Origin: a bacterium
GTDB taxonomy: Bacteria; UBP14; UBA6098; JAFGQG01
NCBI GenBank assembly: GCA_016935765.1
Contig: JAFGQG010000042.1
Span: 1-62,148, forward strand
DNA: 62,148 nucleotides
Direction of reading: 5' to 3'
Below, piece by piece: positions 19,891 to 41,707 of the stretch. The position numbers were made by a program, and so were the translations under genes. Numbering within the stretch: position 1 is the stretch's first letter; every line of letters starts with the position of its first letter. A model generated the notes under the pieces. That model ran no database searches. It was not told the DNA's origin and saw only the letters and a list, made by a program, of their open reading frames with translations.

Positions 19891-20142
19891 ATGAGTACCA
19901 GTACGGTGAATATATCATTCAAAAAAGACTTGTTGAAAGAAATCGATGAACTTGCTCGTAAAGAATCGCGAACACGTTCGGAATTAATCAGGGAAGCTGC
20001 AAGGCTTTACATTGAGCGAAAAAGTAAGTGGAAAAGAGTTTTTGCATTTGGGGAAGAGCAGGTTAATAAGTTCAATCTAAAGGAAGAAGATGTCGAAAAA
20101 GAGATAAAGAAAATTCGGTCCAGGGTTAAGAATAAGAAGTGA
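19891..20142 (+). CDS. CopG/RHH-type antitoxin
   Basis: An 83-residue protein with a ribbon-helix-helix DNA-binding domain: strand STVNISFKKDLLKEI, then helix DELARKESRTRSELIREAARLYIERK. The C-terminal 35 residues are charged and likely bind the partner toxin. It overlaps the PIN-domain gene by four bases (the PIN gene starts on GTG within AAGTGATC). Strong AGAGGAG ribosome site. As in other CopG-PIN pairs it should repress its own promoter, but I see no clear operator. The 214 bases upstream of it hold no gene. Confidence 0.88.
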   Translation: MSTSTVNISFKKDLLKEIDELARKESRTRSELIREAARLYIERKSKWKRVFAFGEEQVNKFNLKEEDVEKEIKKIRSRVKNKK

Positions 20143-20540
20143 TCAAAGTAGTCCCAGACACAAACGTTCTCATTTCGGCCATAGTATTTGGTGGTAATCC
20201 CCGAAACATTCTAGGGCTTGCAATCGAGGGGAAAATCCAATTTGCAGTTTCAGAGTTCATTTTAAATGAAACCAAACAAGTATTAATAGGAAAAAAATTC
20301 AAATATCAATCAGCTATACCTAATTTAGTTATTGATGAAATTAGGGTGTTATCCGATGTTGTTGTTCCCTGTAAGAAAATTCATTTGATAAAAAAAGACA
20401 TCTATGACAATTTTATTCTGGAGTGTGCTATCGAATCAAAAGCGGATTTTGTTATAACAGGGGACTCTCATCTTCTGGATTTGACAGAATATAGAAACGT
20501 CAAAATTCTTACCCCGTCTGATTTTTTAAAGTTAATTTAA
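20139..20540 (+). CDS. PIN-domain toxin, VapC-like
   Basis: A 133-residue PIN-domain protein of the 'putative toxin-antitoxin system toxin component' group. Acidic residues typical of the Mg-binding nuclease site are visible: Asp in VVPDTNVLISA, Glu in FILNETKQVL, Asp in KDIYDNFILECAIESKADF and Asp in ITGDSHLL. Such proteins cut RNA (often tRNA) when freed from their antitoxin. GTG start inside the stop region of the antitoxin gene, so translation is coupled. Intact length. Confidence 0.9.
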   Translation: MIKVVPDTNVLISAIVFGGNPRNILGLAIEGKIQFAVSEFILNETKQVLIGKKFKYQSAIPNLVIDEIRVLSDVVVPCKKIHLIKKDIYDNFILECAIESKADFVITGDSHLLDLTEYRNVKILTPSDFLKLI

Positions 20541-20570: not shown

Positions 20571-22229
20571 TTGATTCACTTTAAAATGCCGTATGTGAGA
20601 GGTTTTATCCCGTTTATGTTGTTTGCAGCAATTTCAATACTAAATGCAAGCACGTACTACGTGGATGTTGGTCATCCCTCAGCGAGCGACTCGAATCCCG
20701 GGACAATGGGATTACCCTGGGCAACTATCCAGCATGCGGCAGATGAAGTCGCTGCTGGAGATACCGTGTTTATCCGCGAGGGAACCTATAATGAGAATGT
20801 CTATATTGGAACAAGCGGGACGCCTCCTGACGACTACATTATTTTTAGAGCCTATCCGGGCGAATCCCCGGTTCTTGATGGTACTGGCGTCGAGGCTGAA
20901 AATGGGCTGGTGGTTGGCTCTTCATATTTAAAACTAATCGGACTTGAGGTCTGCAACTGGTATGGGAACGGAATGTGGTTTGAGAGTGGAGGTTTTACCG
21001 AAATCTGGGACTGCGAAGTTCACGATGTAATGTACGGGATAGGCTTCGCTTATGGCGCTCACGACTTCACCCTGAATAATGTACTGATGCATCATTTCGA
21101 CCTTTACGGTTTCGATGCCTCACCCTCCGGAGGTGACCCGTGTTACAACGGGACCCTGAACGACTGTATTGCGCACACTGGTCGATCTCCTGGTGAAAAT
21201 GTGGACGGCTTCGCGTTCGGGCACGGTGACCAGCATGATTATGTGCTTAACAATTGCACCGCTTACGGGGTGTTCGACGGCTTCGACATAAGCGCTCGAA
21301 ATACCACCCTGAATGCTTGCCTCGCCTATGATTGCGACAACGGCTGCTACAAACTCTGGCAGGAAGAAGTCCGCCTGGTCAACTGCATCGGGTACGACGC
21401 TTCAGGCTCGATCACGGAGATCGACTGGGATGGCGACCCGGGTACAACGTACCTGACAAACTGCACTTTCTTCGACTCGGAGACATACGTCCTCTGGATC
21501 GAGAACCCTGGGGATGAAGTTTACATGTACAACTGCATTCTCGCGGGTGGCGATAATATCTGCCTGGCGTTCGAGTTGATGGGCACCTCCAATTACCATG
21601 GTGATTATAATATTTTTCACACGGATGACGGTTCGCGCGCTGTAGCTGTTGGTTATACGGATGAATTTTCGCTTACAGAAGTCGAAGCGGGTGACTGGAC
21701 GGCTTACAGCGGTCAGGATGCGCACTCGCTCGTAGTGTTTGACCTTGATACTTTGTTCATCAATCCATCAGTTTATGATCTTCACCTGCCTTCATGGAGT
21801 CCCGCGGTGGACCGTGGAGCCGCAGGAGGAGCGCCAACTGTTGATTTTGAGGGTAACCCGCGACCGGTGGGAGCAGGATATGATATTGGCGCTTATGAAT
21901 ATACGCCGGGAGGTGCGATTAATGAGGGGCTGCTTAAGCCAGAGAATTTTGAGATTATCGCCTATCCCAATCCGTTTAATTGTGCAATTTCTATTGAAAT
22001 TTCTGGGGTAGGGACAGATTATAATCTATCCCTACAAAACCAAATTAAAATTTTCGATATAACTGGGAAGATGGTTGAAAACCTTACTCCTCTCTGTTCC
22101 CTGTATCCTGCTCCCTGTTCCCTACTATTATCCTGGTCACCCGAGGCTGTAATTCCCTCAGGTGTCTATTTCATTAATGTGGTCATGGGAGAAAATTCGT
22201 TAGCGAATAAAGTTGTTTATTTGAAATAA
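20571..22229 (+). CDS. Secreted right-handed beta-helix protein with sorting domain
   Basis: 552 residues from a TTG start, which has AAGGAG five bases upstream; an ATG 15 bases further in (MPYVRGFIPFML) is the alternative. Signal peptide ends NAS. A DUF1565-type opening (TYYVDVGHPSASDSNPGT, then WATIQHAADEVAAGDTVFI) leads to a parallel beta-helix (about 70-400) with repeated LxxCxAYxxxDG patterns, as in polysaccharide lyases; no catalytic residues can be assigned. The sorting domain runs from IIAYPNPFNC through IKIFDITGKM to SGVYFINVV and NKVVYLK. Its first loop holds a 28-base near-palindrome (22008-22035) and the second a CTGTTCCC-rich repeat (about 22093-22128), both in frame. Confidence 0.85.
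   Translation: MIHFKMPYVRGFIPFMLFAAISILNASTYYVDVGHPSASDSNPGTMGLPWATIQHAADEVAAGDTVFIREGTYNENVYIGTSGTPPDDYIIFRAYPGESPVLDGTGVEAENGLVVGSSYLKLIGLEVCNWYGNGMWFESGGFTEIWDCEVHDVMYGIGFAYGAHDFTLNNVLMHHFDLYGFDASPSGGDPCYNGTLNDCIAHTGRSPGENVDGFAFGHGDQHDYVLNNCTAYGVFDGFDISARNTTLNACLAYDCDNGCYKLWQEEVRLVNCIGYDASGSITEIDWDGDPGTTYLTNCTFFDSETYVLWIENPGDEVYMYNCILAGGDNICLAFELMGTSNYHGDYNIFHTDDGSRAVAVGYTDEFSLTEVEAGDWTAYSGQDAHSLVVFDLDTLFINPSVYDLHLPSWSPAVDRGAAGGAPTVDFEGNPRPVGAGYDIGAYEYTPGGAINEGLLKPENFEIIAYPNPFNCAISIEISGVGTDYNLSLQNQIKIFDITGKMVENLTPLCSLYPAPCSLLLSWSPEAVIPSGVYFINVVMGENSLANKVVYLK
22008..22035 (+). repeat. Near-perfect 28-base palindrome in sorting-domain loop 1
   Basis: Starts GTAGGGACAGATTA and ends with its reverse complement apart from one mismatch (ATAATCTATCCCTAC side). 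A diverged copy is at 43825-43852 in the corresponding loop of another sorting domain. In this gene it codes for GTDYNLSL. Confidence 0.8.
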
Positions 22230-22249: not shown

Positions 22250-22555
22250 TTTTTCATAATTTTAGGTTAATATTAAAATTTTTCATATTATTATCGATTT
22301 GTAATTATTTTTCATAAAAAGTGATCGTTTTTCACAAAAATAAATTTTAGGCAATATATTAAAGAAATAACTTGACATTATTTTAGATTTTCATAAATTT
22401 ATAATTATAAATATGCTTTTTCATAAATAATGTAATAAATAACTGTTTTTCACAATACATGAACATTATTCATAAAAAAACCAGATAAATTACTATATTT
22501 CACAAAAAGTAATGAAAAATAAGCGTTTTTCACAAGAAATTGCCGTTTTTCATGG
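22250..22555. promoter_or_regulatory. Helically phased array of TTTTTCAYAA sites upstream of fic
   Basis: Eleven copies of TTTTTCATAA or TTTTTCACAA (with small deviations) start at 22250, 22279, 22308, 22328, 22387, 22417, 22446, 22466, 22496, 22526 and 22546. Spacings are 29, 29, 20, 59, 30, 29, 20, 30, 30 and 20 bases, so nearly all copies fall on one face of the helix. The last two copies lie inside the first codons of fic. The sequence between copies is not repeated. A TTGACA at 22372 lies within the array but has no -10 at normal spacing. This fits an operator for a cooperative repressor; what binds is unknown. The array fills the whole 282-base gap before fic. Confidence 0.75.
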
Positions 22556-24047
22556 CCGTTTCGCCCCCGAAAAAGGACTATTAGCTGGCTATAGCGCTCT
22601 GATTAATGCATATAACCTGAAAGTTCCCCTTCCTGATCGGCTTTCACTAATCAGTGCAAAACACAGACGTTATGATTCAGATGAATGGAGTGTTTTTACT
22701 CCCCGGTATAAACCGCGGGACGATTTGTATGATCATCTTACATTTGCCTTAAAATATGAAGGCATCGAGTTAGGCGTTCTTAAGGCTTTGTTTGAAAAAG
22801 TAAAAAGTACTGAGATCAAAGAAATAATAATCAAAGATCCTACCGGCAAGTATAGCAGGAAGATCTGGTTTTTATATGAATGGCTGTTGGGGAAAAAGGT
22901 TGCATTCCCTGATATTAAAAATGCCGAGTATGTTGAGTTAATTGATCCGTACCTGCAATACCCGGGGCCATCCCAAAACTCCGGAAGACATCGCATTAGA
23001 AACAATCTACCTGGTGTTCGTAATTTCTGTCCGATAATTAGAAAAACCGACAAATTGGAAAATTTCCTTTCTTTGAAACTTTCCCTGAAAACCGACTCAT
23101 TATTGGAGAAGATACCCAAAGATATATTGATGCGCGCAGCTTCATTTTTAATCTTGAAGGACTCAAAAGCTTCTTATACTATTGAAGGCGAAACTCCCCC
23201 TCAGACTAGAATTCAAAGATGGGGAAAAGCTATAGGGGAAGCTGGGAAATACCCAATTTCAAAGAATGAATTATTAAGGCTTCAACAGATCGTTATCGAG
23301 AATAATCGGTTCATAAAAATGGGGTGGCGAAACGCCGGAGGATTTGTGGGTGAACGTGATAGGGTTACACTCAATCCGATCCCTGATCATATTTCAGCGA
23401 AACCAGATGATCTTGACTTATTAATGGAGGGTCTCATAACAATGAACAACAAACTCCGGAAATCTAATTATGATCCGGTTCTGGCTGCTGCTTTGATCGC
23501 ATTTGGCTTTGTTTTTATTCATCCTTTCGAAGATGGAAACGGGCGTATTCATCGCTATTTTATACATCACATCCTGGCCAAAATGGGTTTTACACAAAAG
23601 GGTATGATTTTCCCTGTATCATCTGTGATCTTAGAGAAAATTGATGAATACAGAGAGGTACTCGAGGCTTTCTCTTTCCCCCGTCTGGATTTAATTGAAT
23701 GGAAACCCACACCTGAAAAAAACATAGAGGTACTTAACCATACCATCGATCTTTATCGCTATTTTGATGCAACGAAACAAGCAGAATTCCTATACAGTTG
23801 TATCCAGCAGACAATAGATGTTACTATACCTGAAGAGATAAATTACCTAAGAAATTATGATAAAATGAAGGTGTTTCTTGAAGAGCAATTTCAAATGCCG
23901 GATAATATGATTTCTCTTTTAATGAGTTTTTTGTACCAGGGAGAAGGTAAACTTTCAAAAAGAGCGAAAACCAAAGAATTTAAACCTCTAACTAAAAAAG
24001 AAGTAAAAATTATTGAGGATGAATACGACAATATTTTTAATCCGTAA
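22512..24047 (+). CDS. Class II Fic-domain AMP-transferase-like protein
   Basis: A 511-residue Fic protein. N-terminal FHGRFAPEKGLLAGYSALIN to HRRYDSDEWSVFTPR is the module found in the large soluble Fic family. The inhibitory helix motif [ST]xxxE[GN] is present before the core (SYTIEG, about 221-226), which makes it class II. The catalytic motif HPFEDGNGRIHRYFIHHIL (about 338-356) is the intact HPFx[DE]GNGRxxR. Fic enzymes transfer AMP to hydroxyl side chains of target proteins. The C-terminal 100 residues (FLEEQFQMPDNMISLLMSF, then LSKRAKTKEFKPLTKKEVK) could be a winged-helix-type end. The start is the only ATG before FHGRF; the repeat array extends into its first 15 codons, suggesting autoregulation. 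The GH99-like gene follows after 15 bases. Confidence 0.92.
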   Translation: MKNKRFSQEIAVFHGRFAPEKGLLAGYSALINAYNLKVPLPDRLSLISAKHRRYDSDEWSVFTPRYKPRDDLYDHLTFALKYEGIELGVLKALFEKVKSTEIKEIIIKDPTGKYSRKIWFLYEWLLGKKVAFPDIKNAEYVELIDPYLQYPGPSQNSGRHRIRNNLPGVRNFCPIIRKTDKLENFLSLKLSLKTDSLLEKIPKDILMRAASFLILKDSKASYTIEGETPPQTRIQRWGKAIGEAGKYPISKNELLRLQQIVIENNRFIKMGWRNAGGFVGERDRVTLNPIPDHISAKPDDLDLLMEGLITMNNKLRKSNYDPVLAAALIAFGFVFIHPFEDGNGRIHRYFIHHILAKMGFTQKGMIFPVSSVILEKIDEYREVLEAFSFPRLDLIEWKPTPEKNIEVLNHTIDLYRYFDATKQAEFLYSCIQQTIDVTIPEEINYLRNYDKMKVFLEEQFQMPDNMISLLMSFLYQGEGKLSKRAKTKEFKPLTKKEVKIIEDEYDNIFNP

Positions 24048-24062
24048 AATAAGTCCAGTAAT

Positions 24063-25775
24063 ATGAACCTAAAAATAATTACATTGATTTTTATTTTCGT
24101 ATTAATCTCAACATCCCTCGTCTTCCCTCAGCTTTCCGGATATAAGCTCGACATTTACTTCCAGACAACCTCCGACTGGGCAAGCCTCGAATTCCCGGAC
24201 GCTATGATAGTAGCGGTGGACTACACGGTTGAAATCGACTCGTCCGGGGCGGCGGACATCCACGTGTTCCACATCACCAAGCCGGATACGAAAATGGTCG
24301 CTGTCACTTACCACTGCGTTATGCTGGATATCCCCGATTCCGTGACTATGGTCTCCACGAAGGGCGATTGGGGAAATGTGCTGGTGCGAGTGACAAACAT
24401 GAATGGTGAGATGCCGCCATACCCCATGCTAGAGTACTGCAATTACGGTTCCACACCGGGGGATCCCACCAACCGCAGGGAGTTTTACGTTTCGCAGGGT
24501 TTTCTAGCAGAAGGAGGTCCCATAAGCCTGGGTACAGACCCCTGGGTGACGCCCCAATATTTCATGGCATTCTACTACCCATGGTACGGAAATCCCACGG
24601 GTCCGCATGGTTATTGGTTCCATTGGGATCCCTTCAATCATTACGCATCCACACATGAACCCCTGCTGGGTTACTACGACTCACGGGACACCGCCATCAT
24701 TCGCCAGCACATCGCATGGGGTCTGGATTACGGCATCGATGTATTTATCGTATCATGGTGGGGAGAAGGTTCGCATGAAGATGTTACACTCGGAAGGATA
24801 CTTCACGCTGCCGAGGGAACTGACATGCTTTTCTCGGTTTACCTGGAATCCTGTGGGATAGATGCGGTGTTGGACACACTCCGCCCTGATGCTTTTTTAT
24901 ATCAATTAAATTATGTGCTTGTCAATTATTCTTCGCATCCGAACTTCTTAATTTTAGATGGCTTACCAGTGGTCTTCGTGTATGGCTATCCAATCTCACT
25001 CATGTCCCCCGATGACTGGCAGTATGTGGTGGACAATCTGAGCGTCCCTTGTATCCTCATCGGTGATTCCTTCAGTCCAATCTACCTGGATATCTTTGAT
25101 GGGTGCCACACCTACAACCCGCTGGATACGCCTGTAGATGAACTGCTGTTCACTTACACCCAGGCTTCACTGCGGAGCTCCATGACGCACAAGATTTTCT
25201 GCGCTACGATGCTCCCCGGGTACTGCGATACGATAATTCGGGATCCCGGGGCAACGGTTGAGAGACTCGATGGAGTATTTTATAAAACCCGCTTTGATGT
25301 GTGCGTTGCTGCTTCCCCGAACTTCATTCTAATCACCTCATGGAACGAGTGGCATGAGGGCTCGGAGATCGAACCTTCGGTGGAAAACGGCTACCAGTAC
25401 CTTGATTCAACGCTGGCGTTCAAAGCACGCTGGACCGGGGGGACTGGAGTTGCTGACGAGATAATTATCCCTGACAAGTTCGACATTTTATGTTATCCTA
25501 ATCCGTTTAATTCGGTTGTTCATATTGATGTCATAGGGGCGTTAAATTTAACGCCCTTACAGATTGAAATTTTTGATATTAATGGCAGGAAGGTTAGAGA
25601 GTTAGAGTATTCGAGTGTTGGAGCGTTCGATCGACCCGGATCTCCGGATACTCGGATTACCGGATCCACATTCTATTCCTGGACACCAGATAAATCCGCT
25701 CCTTCCGGCATATACTTCATTCGAGTGACTTCGAATGCAATGCAATTAACAAGGAAAATCATATACTTGAGATAA
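24063..25775 (+). CDS. Secreted GH99-like endo-mannosidase-type protein with sorting domain
   Basis: 570 residues. Signal peptide ends LVFPQ. The central part (about 165-460) has hallmarks of glycoside hydrolase family 99-like proteins: FMAFYYPWYGNPTG, IIRQHIAWGLDYGIDVFIVS, WWG, HPNFLILDGLPVVFVYG, and ITSWNEWHEGSEIEPSVENG, which carries the conserved Glu residues near the active site. GH99 enzymes are endo-alpha-mannosidases or mannanases acting on glycans. Residues about 25-160 form an extra N-terminal beta domain. The sorting domain runs from ILCYPNPFNS through IEIFDINGRK to SGIYFIRV and RKIIYLR, with a perfect 20-base palindrome in loop 1 and a CCGGATCTCCGG element in loop 2. It follows fic by 15 bases. 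Confidence 0.85.
   Translation: MNLKIITLIFIFVLISTSLVFPQLSGYKLDIYFQTTSDWASLEFPDAMIVAVDYTVEIDSSGAADIHVFHITKPDTKMVAVTYHCVMLDIPDSVTMVSTKGDWGNVLVRVTNMNGEMPPYPMLEYCNYGSTPGDPTNRREFYVSQGFLAEGGPISLGTDPWVTPQYFMAFYYPWYGNPTGPHGYWFHWDPFNHYASTHEPLLGYYDSRDTAIIRQHIAWGLDYGIDVFIVSWWGEGSHEDVTLGRILHAAEGTDMLFSVYLESCGIDAVLDTLRPDAFLYQLNYVLVNYSSHPNFLILDGLPVVFVYGYPISLMSPDDWQYVVDNLSVPCILIGDSFSPIYLDIFDGCHTYNPLDTPVDELLFTYTQASLRSSMTHKIFCATMLPGYCDTIIRDPGATVERLDGVFYKTRFDVCVAASPNFILITSWNEWHEGSEIEPSVENGYQYLDSTLAFKARWTGGTGVADEIIIPDKFDILCYPNPFNSVVHIDVIGALNLTPLQIEIFDINGRKVRELEYSSVGAFDRPGSPDTRITGSTFYSWTPDKSAPSGIYFIRVTSNAMQLTRKIIYLR
25537..25556. repeat. Perfect 20-base palindrome in sorting-domain loop 1
   Basis: GGGCGTTAAATTTAACGCCC is an exact 10+10 palindrome coding for GALNLTP just before LQIEIFDINGRK. 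Its halves reappear, split by 30 bases, at 41321-41371, and a diverged form (GGCGTT/AACGCC) is at 5354-5372. Confidence 0.85.
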
Positions 25776-37364: not shown

Positions 37365-39218
37365 ATGAATAATATAATTATCTTGTCGCTTGAATTTAAT
37401 AACCGGCTGTTGTATGTTTCATTAGCGATGCTTTCATTGGTCCTGGTCGAAACGCCATTGATTGCAGCTACTTACAGCGTAGGTTCCGGGCTGGCTTACG
37501 ACTGCATAGGCGATGTTCCGTGGGATGTGCTTGAGGCAGGGGATTCCGTCCTGATACATTACAGGGACAGCGTTTATCATGAAAAGTGGGTGCTTTGCTG
37601 CGTGGGGACATTCGCAGAGCCTGTCGTAGTAAGGGGCATTCCTGATGAATTCGGCAATCTGCCGGTGATAGACGGAAGGGATGCGGTTACACCGCCGGGG
37701 CTCAATTTCTGGAACGAGGAGCGTGGAGTTATCAAGATCGGAGGGGCGAATAATCCCCCGGATACCATGCCTGCGTACATAATTATTGAGAACCTTGACA
37801 TCAAAAGCGGTCGCCCACCGTATGCATTTACCGGCAGGTACGGATTAGATAATTACGTGAATAACTGCGCAGCGATCTACATCGAGAAAGGGGAACATAT
37901 TATTATAAGGAATTGCACGCTGCGGGATTGTGGTAACGGTCTTTTCTGTGGGCACCAGGCAACGGACCTCGTGGTAGAAGGCTGCTATATAGTCAATAAC
38001 GGCATAGAGGACAGGATCTATGAACACAATAATTACACCGAAGCCTTCGGAATTCTCTTTCAGTTCAACCACTTCGATTCCTTAAGAACGGGATGCGAGG
38101 GGAATAACCTTAAAGATCGCTCTGCAGGATGCATCATACGGTATAACTGGATTGAAGATGGCAACCGCCAGCTTGACCTGGTGGATACCGATTATGAAGC
38201 GTTTTATAGCGATTCTATCTACAATAAAACCTATGTCTATGGAAACATCCTGGTGGAGAATGAAGGAGAGGGAAACAGCCAGATAATACACTATGGCGGC
38301 GATTCGGGAGTAGAGGAGAGATACCGCAAGGGTACGCTTCTCCTGTATAACAATACGATTATCTCAACGAGAAGTGGAAATACTACACTGGTGCGATTAT
38401 CCAGCGATGGCGAAGCCTGCGACGCGAGGAACAACATTATTTATACGACAGCGACCGGCGATCACCTCGCCATGCTGAACGATGCGGGTACTATAGAACT
38501 TCGGAATAACTGGTTGAGGTCCGGGTGGGTGAACACCCACAGTCCGGGTACCGGGGTGGTCAATGATTATGGGAACGTTGAAGGCTCAGACCCCGGCTTC
38601 GCGAATTTCCCGCTGGATGATTTAAACCTGTCTGAAAGTTCACCATGCATTAACGCCGGCGCTTCACTTCATGCCGAAATTCTGCCGGAGCTGTTTCCCA
38701 CAATGCATTATATTCGGCATTGCTTATCCGCGCCTCGCCCGGAAGACGACACGCTCGATATCGGCGCTTACGAATATTTGACTGGATTCCTGGTTGATGA
38801 GCCCCAGATTTTGCCTGACAAGTTTGACATATTATGTTATCCTAATCCGTTTTCGGAGAAGACAACTATCAGTTATCAATTATTAGTTAGCAATACTCAA
38901 TCAATCCCATCCCTTTCCTCACCGGTTACCGATTTTCAAATAGCAGGTAAGATAGAAATCTATGATATAAATGGGAGGTTGGTTTTCTTTGACTGGCAGG
39001 GATGCCTGTCCATACAGGGCAGGGATGCCTCAGTGACAGGCAGGGATGCCTGTCCATACAGGGTTGGGGGGAAGGGAATGCATCAACTCATCAACGCTCC
39101 TACCCATCTACCCTCTTTTTCTTGGCAGCCTGACGAATCAATACCCTCCGGGGTTTATATGATAAGAGTCCAATTCCTTAACACCCAAACAACCAGGAGA
39201 GTTGTATATTTAAAATGA
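37365..39218 (+). CDS. Secreted right-handed beta-helix protein with sorting domain
   Basis: 617 residues. Start region is hydrophobic (about 10-36, ends TPLIAATYSV) with a possible long n-region. Beta-helix from about 45 to 450: IIIENLDIKSGRPPYAFTGR, IIIRNCTLRDCGNGLFCGHQ, LVVEGCYIVNNGIEDRI, YVYGNILVENEGEGNSQIIH, LLYNNTIISTRSGNTTLV. This is typical of surface polysaccharide lyase-like proteins, no active site assigned. The sorting domain starts ILCYPNPFSEKTTISYQLLV and ends SGVYMIRV and RRVVYLK. It is stretched to about 130 residues by an ATTATCAGTTATCA-type segment in loop 1 (38866-38898) and GACAGGCA-family repeats in loop 2 (38991-39063), all in frame. First of three consecutive sorting-domain genes with 14-base gaps. 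Confidence 0.85.
   Translation: MNNIIILSLEFNNRLLYVSLAMLSLVLVETPLIAATYSVGSGLAYDCIGDVPWDVLEAGDSVLIHYRDSVYHEKWVLCCVGTFAEPVVVRGIPDEFGNLPVIDGRDAVTPPGLNFWNEERGVIKIGGANNPPDTMPAYIIIENLDIKSGRPPYAFTGRYGLDNYVNNCAAIYIEKGEHIIIRNCTLRDCGNGLFCGHQATDLVVEGCYIVNNGIEDRIYEHNNYTEAFGILFQFNHFDSLRTGCEGNNLKDRSAGCIIRYNWIEDGNRQLDLVDTDYEAFYSDSIYNKTYVYGNILVENEGEGNSQIIHYGGDSGVEERYRKGTLLLYNNTIISTRSGNTTLVRLSSDGEACDARNNIIYTTATGDHLAMLNDAGTIELRNNWLRSGWVNTHSPGTGVVNDYGNVEGSDPGFANFPLDDLNLSESSPCINAGASLHAEILPELFPTMHYIRHCLSAPRPEDDTLDIGAYEYLTGFLVDEPQILPDKFDILCYPNPFSEKTTISYQLLVSNTQSIPSLSSPVTDFQIAGKIEIYDINGRLVFFDWQGCLSIQGRDASVTGRDACPYRVGGKGMHQLINAPTHLPSFSWQPDESIPSGVYMIRVQFLNTQTTRRVVYLK
38991..39063 (+). repeat. GACAGGCA-family palindromes in sorting-domain loop 2
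   Basis: Three copies: a first with GACTGGCAGGGATGCCTGTC (38991-39010), a partial one (39017-39032) and a perfect GACAGGCAGGGATGCCTGTC (39035-39054), linked by CCATACAGGG. They encode repeated QGCLS/RDAC-like residues between the DINGR strand and the WQP strand. Confidence 0.8.
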
Positions 39219-39232
39219 AATGGTAGGAGAGC

Positions 39233-41707
39233 ATGAAGATTATATATCGGTTATTTCTTGTTTTGTCAATAGTATTTTTATTCGGTTTGGCGGAAAGCGC
39301 ACCAGAGCGGCTTGACCTTCTAGGTCAGGTATCCGGCGGTGCGGGTTTTACGGTCGAATATAAGGATGGACGCCTGTATGCAGGCTGCGGCTCCAGTATC
39401 CTGGTGTTTGACGCCACCGATCCGGCTGAAGAGATCATACTCGCCCGGCGGGATTTTCTCTCGATAATGACGAGAATAATCGTGCGGGATGATACTCTTC
39501 TCTTCGTTGGGGTGAATCATGATGGCATCTACGCTTTGGACGGCACGGAACCGGACTTGCCCATACTTGCTTATACACCCATGCCCGACCACGACCACTG
39601 GGTTGCGGATTTCGAATTGACTCCACCTGACACACTCTGGCTTTCTGATATGAAGGGGCTTCGCAAGCTCCATTTTAACGGCAGCTCTTTCATTGAGCTT
39701 GAAAGCTACTTCGAGGGTAGAAAGGTGGCGGGTATAGCAATAAGGGATACTTTCATGGCGGTCTGCACGAGGGAAATTTTTTCCGGGCACGTCGAGCTTT
39801 ATAGTATTGCCCAGGGTAGAATGGAACCCATATATATCTTCAACGATCCGCGTTTGACCCTGGTGCAGGATGTTCAATTCGCGGACCTTCGCGATGACAT
39901 TATTTACGTCCTGGGAGGCAGTCCCAACATTGGGGTGAACGGTGATTTCATCGCTCTCCAGTTCGATAGCGATTCCCTCTTCGAGGTCGCGAGGCACACC
40001 TTCTCGGGGATACCGATATATGCTCAGACCTGCGTGATGAACATGGATTCCCGCAACGACACGCTGTTTCTTGCAACTATGGCGGGTATGTATTGGCCTC
40101 CCGCGCCGGATACCTCCTGGATCGACTGCCCGGTACTGGACGGAACCCTTTTGCCTGATACACTTCCCATTATCGCGCATATCATACCGGGTCTCTGGTA
40201 CTTCGATGTGGCGCTGCACGACGAACTACCGGCGCTGGCGATCGGCTCGGAGTGGCTTGGAATCTATTGGGCGGATATATCCGATTTGAGCGCGCGTTTT
40301 GATACTATCGCCTTCCACCGGACCGGCGGCTGGGGACACAAATCACTACTCCGCGGAGATACTCTCTGGCTTGCATGGAGAGGTGGCGGCGTTGGGATCT
40401 TCGATGTTTCAGATCCTACGAGACCGATCCAACTCGAAGTAATTTTAGGTCAATTCGCAACCGATGTCGCCATCCTGGACTCCATTGTGTGTGTAGCCAG
40501 GGGAAGCCAATTCCGGTTTCATAATCTAGCGCCCTGGCATCGTGGCTTCGAGATAGAGAAGATCGATTCCTTCTGGCCCCCGAGAGTACTCTTTGAAAAC
40601 CACACATGCTATTCGGTCATAACGATGGAGACGGATGTGGGCGCGAGGTTCCTGTGCGGCACCACCGAATCCGGGTTAGACCTGATCGACCCTCTCGACC
40701 TTCCCGATGTGGAATCCAGGGGACTTTTGTTCGAAAACCAGGATCCCCTCGCAATGGAATGCTCCGGAGATACCCTGTTCATGGTGACCAGTGAAACCCT
40801 TTTTGTAGCTATAATATCCCACGATAGCGCAAATGTGTTGACAAGGTACCCGGTTCCGGGTCCGGCGTATGGTCTCTGCAGGGAAGGGGAATTCGTTGCG
40901 GTGATGTGCCAGACTGCCGGAGCTTACTGGTTCAACTTCACCGGCGATTCGTTGATACTCCTGGGTACCTGGGACCCGGTCAGGGAAGCCAGAATGGTGG
41001 AATACAGGGATAGCCTTCTCTATGCCCCGTGCTCCTCAGAAGGATTGTATATACTGGATATATGGCATAGCCCTGAACCGGAAACACTTGCCTGGTTCCC
41101 GGGAACTGGCGGCTGGGAATTCCTTGATTTCGGCACCAGCCACGTGACCTTTAATGAAGAAGGTATGATCTTTCTCACTGATTTCCATGGCGGGTGTTTC
41201 ATACTCGAGGCTTATGACCGTCATTCTCTTATCGGAGAGATAGGCGAAATAAAACCTGACAACTTCCAGGTTTCGTGTTATCCTAATCCGTTCAATTCAT
41301 CGGTGAAAATTGCTATTGTGGGAGTGTTAAACCTGTCCCTCGAAGCCTTGGCGAAGGGGGATTTAACGCCCTTACAGGCGGATATTTACGATATTAATGG
41401 GAGATTGATTTACAGTGACAGGCAGGATTTAGCTGACAGGCAAGGATGCCTCGGTGACAGGCAGGGATGCCTCGGTGACAGGCAAGGATGCCTCAGTGAC
41501 AGGCAAGGATGCCTGTCCATACATTGCAAGGATGCGTATCCAGACAGGGGAGTAGGGAAGGGTGGTACCCCTATACCCGTCAATCCTCCAACCCATATAC
41601 TGTCTTATAACTGGCAGCCTGACGAATCTGTACCCTCAGGTATTTACCTGGTAAGAGTCCGATTTATGAATAACACGGTGACTAAAAAGGCTGTATATCT
41701 TAAATAG
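39233..41707 (+). CDS. Secreted beta-propeller protein with sorting domain, paralogue 1
   Basis: 824 residues. Signal peptide about 1-22 (ends LAESA). About 700 residues of short beta strands in LVIVP/propeller style: GQVSGGAGFTVEYKDGRLYA, DATDPAEEIILARRDFLSI, GIFDVSDPTRPIQLEVILGQ, YILDIWHSPEPETLAWFPGT. Each blade alternates an observation strand with a 'DxSDPxxP' turn. Binding partner unknown. The sorting domain, beginning VSCYPNPFNSS and ending SGIYLVRV and KKAVYLK, is about 140 residues long because loop 1 holds a nested palindrome (41321-41371) and loop 2 five 21-base repeats (41417-41517). GGAGAG ribosome site. Nearly the same protein is encoded next. Confidence 0.85.
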   Translation: MKIIYRLFLVLSIVFLFGLAESAPERLDLLGQVSGGAGFTVEYKDGRLYAGCGSSILVFDATDPAEEIILARRDFLSIMTRIIVRDDTLLFVGVNHDGIYALDGTEPDLPILAYTPMPDHDHWVADFELTPPDTLWLSDMKGLRKLHFNGSSFIELESYFEGRKVAGIAIRDTFMAVCTREIFSGHVELYSIAQGRMEPIYIFNDPRLTLVQDVQFADLRDDIIYVLGGSPNIGVNGDFIALQFDSDSLFEVARHTFSGIPIYAQTCVMNMDSRNDTLFLATMAGMYWPPAPDTSWIDCPVLDGTLLPDTLPIIAHIIPGLWYFDVALHDELPALAIGSEWLGIYWADISDLSARFDTIAFHRTGGWGHKSLLRGDTLWLAWRGGGVGIFDVSDPTRPIQLEVILGQFATDVAILDSIVCVARGSQFRFHNLAPWHRGFEIEKIDSFWPPRVLFENHTCYSVITMETDVGARFLCGTTESGLDLIDPLDLPDVESRGLLFENQDPLAMECSGDTLFMVTSETLFVAIISHDSANVLTRYPVPGPAYGLCREGEFVAVMCQTAGAYWFNFTGDSLILLGTWDPVREARMVEYRDSLLYAPCSSEGLYILDIWHSPEPETLAWFPGTGGWEFLDFGTSHVTFNEEGMIFLTDFHGGCFILEAYDRHSLIGEIGEIKPDNFQVSCYPNPFNSSVKIAIVGVLNLSLEALAKGDLTPLQADIYDINGRLIYSDRQDLADRQGCLGDRQGCLGDRQGCLSDRQGCLSIHCKDAYPDRGVGKGGTPIPVNPPTHILSYNWQPDESVPSGIYLVRVRFMNNTVTKKAVYLK
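41321..41371 (+). repeat. Palindrome split by a second imperfect palindrome
   Basis: GGAGTGTTAAA (41321-41331) and TTTAACGCCC (41362-41371) are the two halves of the element intact at 25537-25556. Exactly 30 bases lie between them (41332-41361, starting CCTGTCCCTCGAAGCC and ending GGCGAAGGGGGA), themselves an imperfect inverted repeat. The insert adds ten in-frame codons (LSLEALAKGD region). Confidence 0.8.
41417..41517 (+). repeat. 21-base tandem repeats of the GACAGGCA family in coding sequence
   Basis: A degenerate copy at 41417, then copies starting 41435, 41456, 41477 and 41498, unit GACAGGCARGGATGCCTCRG plus T. The last ends in the perfect palindrome form (GCCTGTC) followed by CCATACA. 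The 21-base period adds seven residues per copy (DRQGCLG or DRQGCLS) without frameshift. Confidence 0.9.

Follow-up and report, generated by a model that had tools for sequence, protein, structure and literature searches.

In a bacterial contig stretch of 62,148 nucleotides (JAFGQG010000042.1 of assembly GCA_016935765.1; hereafter, the window), eleven copies of a short motif stand in line ahead of a fic gene and continue into its first codons. The question raised by this locus is which protein reads these copies, and with what consequence for the gene that carries them. An earlier sequence-only reading regarded them as an operator-like array for a small regulator, perhaps the Fic protein itself. 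The analysis described below indicates that a candidate Fic toxin probably represses itself by binding its own operator array through its N-terminal domain.

The array and its setting in the window

The array consists of TTTTTCAY sites that all lie on the plus strand, with successive steps of 29, 29, 20, 59, 30, 29, 20, 30, 30, and 20 bp (Table 1); the longer form, TTTTTCAYAA, is matched exactly by 6 of the 11 sites, and the rest have one or two mismatches. The number of sites and the spacings of 20, 29–30, and 59 bases had already been given in the sequence-only reading, and both are upheld; as regards the number of sites, 2000 dinucleotide shuffles of the region produced a mean of 1.2 and a maximum of 5. 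Likewise, the 59-bp gap had been taken for one lost site, which agrees with its decomposition into 30 + 29 and with the absence of a recognizable site at the intervening position; the extension of the array into the fic coding sequence was also described correctly. Pairs of TTTTTCAY separated by 19–21 bp occur only twice in the 4-Mb genome, both times within this array, and a looser pattern of TTTTTCNY pairs, scanned across other genomes, remained at background level and was uninformative, apart from one Fic paralogue. No intrinsic terminators were found near the array.

Two features of the earlier description have to be revised. The conserved site extends beyond ten bases to ~15 bp (rTAAyyRTTTTTCAY), and it is asymmetric and directly repeated, contrary to the proposal that the reverse reading TTRTGAAAAA serves as a half-site. 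Furthermore, the steps are multiples of ~10.0 bp, so that in relaxed B-DNA, with its 10.5 bp per turn, the array points in all directions round the helix over 300 bp instead of keeping to one face; given this mismatch between 10.0 and 10.5 bp, neighboring bound copies may be slightly rotated around the helix, or the DNA may be overwound.

Table 1. Coordinates of the array, the fic gene, and their parts within the window
Feature	Coordinates	Strand	Basis
Array of 11 direct-repeat TTTTTCAY sites, one position vacant near 22358	22250..22555	+	shuffles; homologue architecture
Distal sites 22250, 22279, 22308, 22328	22250..22337	+	
Promoter-like TTGACA-N16-TAAATT, site 22387 within spacer	22372..22399	+	consensus match only
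Promoter and leader sites 22387, 22417, 22446, 22466, 22496	22387..22505	+	
Two coding-sequence sites, 22526 and 22546 (codons 5–8 and 12–15 of fic)	22526..22555	+	synonymous codons constrained in homologues
fic, 511 aa, PDC-S24 family, class II Fic	22512..24047	+	
N-terminal domain, residues 1–178, proposed sequence-specific DNA-binding domain, no Pfam family	22512..23045	+	
Residues 51–68, covarying with site positions +4 and +5	22662..22715	+	
Residues 137–138, covarying with site positions -5 and -6	22920..22925	+	
Inhibitory-helix motif S-Y-T-I-E-G (221–226), class II Fic	23172..23189	+	sequence; invariance in homologues
Fic catalytic motif HPFEDGNGR (337–345)	23520..23546	+	

In the window, fic is flanked by genes for secreted proteins (20571–22229 and 24063–25775), beta-helix and GH99-like, both of which carry Por secretion-system C-terminal sorting domains. 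Farther upstream, at 19891–20540, a ribbon-helix-helix (RHH) gene is followed by a PIN-domain gene in an ordinary-looking toxin-antitoxin pair. Elsewhere, at 38990–39063 and 41407–41546, tandem repeats of ~21 bp are found (unit TGACAGGCAAGGATGCCTCGG), with a short inverted repeat in each.

Conservation of the array among fic homologues

Among ~120 fic homologues, mainly from Bacteroidota and alphaproteobacterial plasmids, the array is present in most, with lags of exactly 20, 30, and 50 bp; the sequence-only reading had named the absence of the motif upstream of close orthologues as grounds for giving up its view, and the array is instead conserved there with fixed spacing. In 81 orthologues, sites recur at about -89, -59, -39, -14, +16, and +36 relative to the start codon, and the usual layout is that of two triplets (steps of 30 and 20 bp), 24–26 bp apart, placed around the promoter and reaching into codons 5–15. 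The window has 30–30 steps, unlike the 30–20 alternation that is usual in homologues. In Bacteroidota, the site at -39 directly precedes a TAnnTTTG promoter element. In a few orthologues, the arrays are weak, short, or altered; these departures, like the 30–30 steps in the window, count against the self-binding reading given below.

This geometry was also recovered without reference to the motif, by taking the best 15-mer self-match at each lag in 123 homologues. Self-matching peaks exactly at lags of 20, 30, and 50 bp (12.2, 11.8, and 11.5 of 15, over a baseline of ~8.2), with no excess at lags of 40 and 60 bp, and control regions, taken 300 bp inside the gene and 420 bp upstream, give a flat profile. 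At seven other Fic-family genes from the phylum, peaks at 20, 30, or 50 bp are absent. Within the coding sites, the codon for Ser7 is TCA in 75/86 homologues (20 expected) and that for Phe13 is TTT in 95/97 (74 expected), and the same codons are kept even in several genomes of 60–65% GC; this codon constraint implies that selection acts on the nucleotides. The comparison of homologues establishes the array, its conserved geometry, and a DNA-level constraint within the coding sequence. Moreover, when other genomes were scanned for the DNA pattern alone, a second Fic paralogue was reached, which likewise has an array. One genome holds two array-bearing Fic paralogues (L170 and L060) whose site letters are alike, such that cross-repression may be possible.

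The Fic protein and its N-terminal domain

The fic product matches the PADLOC PDC-S24 profile at 652.8 bits (profile positions 6–490 of 497, residues 24–510) and Pfam PF02661 (Fic) at 48.8 bits against a cut-off of 24, and its HPFEDGNGR stretch fits the superfamily pattern HPFx[D/E]GNGR. The class II pattern (S/T)xxxE(G/N), located N-terminal to the Fic core, is found as S221-YTI-E225-G226; S221 and E225 are invariant across 74 homologues, and the key catalytic and inhibitory residues are invariant or nearly so. The AlphaFold2 model (pLDDT 93) has Fic proteins as its nearest solved folds, including CbFic2 and SoFic (8cil and 3eqx). In three orthologues (L031, L034, and L059), the protein is ~617 aa long with a C-terminal extension of ~105 residues that returns only sub-threshold Pfam matches (DUF29).

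A search of 16 further genomes from the phylum yielded no orthologue of fic, and relatives at 55–62% identity are present in Bacteroidota; because of this distribution, the gene of the window was probably gained by transfer. Approximately 260 plasmid records contain fic relatives, and none was found in viral contigs or phage records.

Residues 1–178, modelled alone, give a pLDDT of 92.8 and match no Pfam family, and no solved structure in the PDB is matched significantly. The best Foldseek hits are AbiEi-like chains at E-values of 0.057 and 0.84; homology to AbiEi was rejected by profile comparison, at a probability of 0.15%. Because it has no significant solved relative, the domain is not nameable as a known DNA-binding fold. 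Nevertheless, the order of its predicted helices (87–96, 99–108, and 113–126, followed by a loop with 136–142) would suit a winged-helix-like arrangement, in which the invariant R116 and K117 would lie near the invariant T run of the site.

Covariation between site letters and N-terminal residues

Different homologues carry different versions of the site at the same steps, such as TAAYYRTTTTTCAY (the type of the window), ACCTRTTTTTCC, TTTTTCG, GCGCYTGTTTTTA, and others, and the protein columns were ranked, one site position at a time, by their power to predict the letter. Because automatic lag-based picking of sites often locked on a shifted register, the site letters were read with a TTTTC anchor and an A at -7; this choice makes the result conditional on the main type of motif, and loci of the GCGC type received a separate treatment. 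The best predictor of position -6 is residue 138, and that of position -5 is residue 137; for position +4 the best predictors are residues 63, 66, and 53, and for position +5 they are residues 51 and 67. Neighboring residues therefore pair with neighboring bases (137 with -5, 138 with -6, 63–66 with +4, and 51 with +5), all within the N-terminal domain. For example, homologues with K138 have C at -6 in 31 cases and A in 2, and those with G, A, S, or R at 138 have A in 62 cases and C in none. Outside residues 1–180, the best column reaches only 0.35 (adjusted).

These associations persist when phylogeny is considered. With a tree computed solely from the Fic part, ~15 switches of the letter at -6 are seen, and all eight supported independent switch pairs are concordant with residue 138 (sign test, p = 0.008); the letter at +4 agrees with residues 63 and 66 in about 8 of 10 pairs, and none is opposite. 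Homologues fetched later do not contradict the residue-to-base rule where their sites can be scored. The link is not circular, because the covarying residues are encoded well away from the site-bearing codons. The comparison establishes the residue-to-base covariation as well. A tree of the N-terminal part has 8 switches of this letter instead of 15, a hint that the domain may at times travel as one unit with its array.

These results bear on the earlier suggestion that the binder is the C-terminus of Fic: Fic itself is retained as the best explanation, and the C-terminus is replaced by the N-terminal domain, since specificity maps to residues 51–68 and 137/138. A C-terminal winged helix was rejected as the binder, there being no covariation in that region. 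One observation counts against a single binder. In four loci (L036, L051, L052, and L069), the arrays are mixed, with ACCT..TTTTTCC upstream and TAA/ATA..TTTTTCAC around and inside the start, and one protein would have to tolerate both types of site.

Proposed mechanism and alternative explanations

In the proposed mechanism, the N-terminal domain would bind the ~15-bp asymmetric sites, which begin ahead of the promoter, cross the leader, and end at codon 15; several copies of Fic would occupy adjacent sites at the constant steps of 20 and 30 bp, presumably as cooperative oligomers. Newly made Fic would fill this ladder of sites and cover the promoter, the leader, and the start codon, thereby shutting off its own gene. 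A site within the promoter-like element makes it plausible that an occupied array would block transcription, and the position of the sites points to repression rather than activation. One protein would thus form a negative feedback loop by itself, and a class II AMP-transferase with toxic potential would be kept scarce; this low steady-state level, together with the inhibitory helix, would prevent the enzyme from doing harm. The array accompanies the gene, and its letters change in concert with the residues proposed to recognize them.

An extended form of this mechanism, in which the array acts as a safety catch, appears unlikely: head-to-tail copies of Fic would be stored inactive on the DNA, an attack that strips, copies, or degrades the DNA would release active AMP-transferase, and diversified pairs of sites and residues would keep co-resident copies from silencing one another.

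Alternatively, a distinct regulator, belonging to the host or to a defence island, could occupy the array; regulators of defence islands are exemplified by the WYL-domain family and RptR, and an RHH protein is encoded 2.4 kb upstream of fic. The sequence-only reading had looked to such a nearby RHH/HicB-like regulator. However, the RHH gene (19891–20142) is paired with the PIN-domain gene and is not conserved with fic, and no partner gene is conserved beside fic at all, given that no neighbor family (ORFs of at least 60 aa) exceeds 13 of 55 loci, the commonest being type I restriction genes. In addition, the paired sites of this genome occur only at fic, the array is kept across phyla, and the site letters covary with Fic residues in a phylogeny-controlled test; a separate regulator is hence quite improbable. 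In the same 13 loci (e.g., L022, L046, L057, and L069), fic lies within restriction-modification operons, between hsdS upstream and hsdR downstream, and these neighbors are a suggestive pointer to a defence role of the candidate PDC-S24 family.

Other explanations dispense with a DNA-binding repressor. Recognition of UUUUUCAY at the RNA level, by Fic or another factor that blocks translation from the leader and the mRNA start, would account for sites that flank the start codon and enter the open reading frame; nevertheless, sites of the same kind and spacing also precede the promoter-like element and so would not be part of the predicted transcript, and exact 10-bp-based steps suit double-stranded DNA, which makes this reading very unlikely. 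Phased A-tracts are less probable still, even though T5 runs centred in the sites at multiples of 10 bp would bend the DNA and might merely curve the promoter. The missing excess at lags of 40 and 60 bp, the conserved TAA and CAY flanks that shift in step with protein residues, and the TTT and TCA codons kept in high-GC genomes led to the rejection of A-tracts as a sole cause. Finally, a repeated motif with spacers might resemble the remnant of a tandem duplication or a CRISPR-like array, a possibility that the sequence-only reading had already dismissed and that can now be given practically no weight: the spacers are not conserved, the core has 10 bases, the steps alternate between 30 and 20 bp, Tandem Repeats Finder reports no repeat at the array, and the sites reach into codons across lineages, such that the comparison of homologues refutes it.

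Comparison with known systems

In toxin-antitoxin operons such as Phd-Doc and AbiE, negative feedback on the toxin operates via repeated operators, and the DNA binder is a separate antitoxin. In the Fic of the window, by contrast, toxin and repressor would be one polypeptide, and no conserved adjacent antitoxin gene, as expected of a two-gene system, was found at the 55 loci among ORFs of at least 60 aa.

A precedent for an autorepressing Fic protein is CccR of Yersinia pseudotuberculosis, a secreted effector and AMP-transferase that binds its own promoter and represses itself, using a C-terminal HTH as a dimer on one inverted repeat with 10-bp arms and a 26-bp spacer (PMC9755527). The two proteins would be alike in this respect, and they share class II-like inhibitory S and E residues. 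However, the Fic of the window shows no sign of secretion, and a C-terminal HTH acting on an inverted repeat does not describe it: its sites are repeated on one strand at 20/30-bp steps, in a long array that continues into the coding sequence, and the site letters are predicted by the N-terminal domain.

The class II protein SoFic, the product of a single-gene system, carries its own inhibitory helix and has been proposed as an abortive-infection toxin in phage defence (PMC12249575). It shares the class and the inhibitory helix with the Fic of the window and is among its nearest fold matches; the N-terminal domains are unlike, and the fic product scores 26 bits against the cut-off of 550 of the SoFic equivalog NF046030. 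No operator array is reported for SoFic in the available portion of the text (PMC12249575), whereas the window has one.

The family to which the Fic of the window does belong, PDC-S24 (PADLOC-DB 2.0), is a candidate label only, and its entry is without the array, the DNA-binding domain, and the recognition residues described here. Neither the name PDC-S24 nor a description of such an array was found in the literature searched, which left out most subscription journals and bioRxiv, so that this absence is provisional.

Implications

A self-repressing Fic protein is already known in CccR; what is new here is a previously undescribed DNA-binding domain, as proposed, together with an unusual co-evolving operator array. 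A widespread candidate defence toxin, whose toxicity and role in phage defence are presumed, thereby gains a testable mechanism, comprising an unclassified putative DNA-binding domain, its sites, and the residue-base pairs that would set specificity. The findings point to a Fic toxin that would serve as its own repressor via a long array of direct repeats, rather than via an antitoxin or a palindrome. Moreover, the parallel change of sites and residues, with ~15 switches on the Fic tree, may be regarded as a natural experiment in which the specificity of a repressor evolves and moves between phyla.
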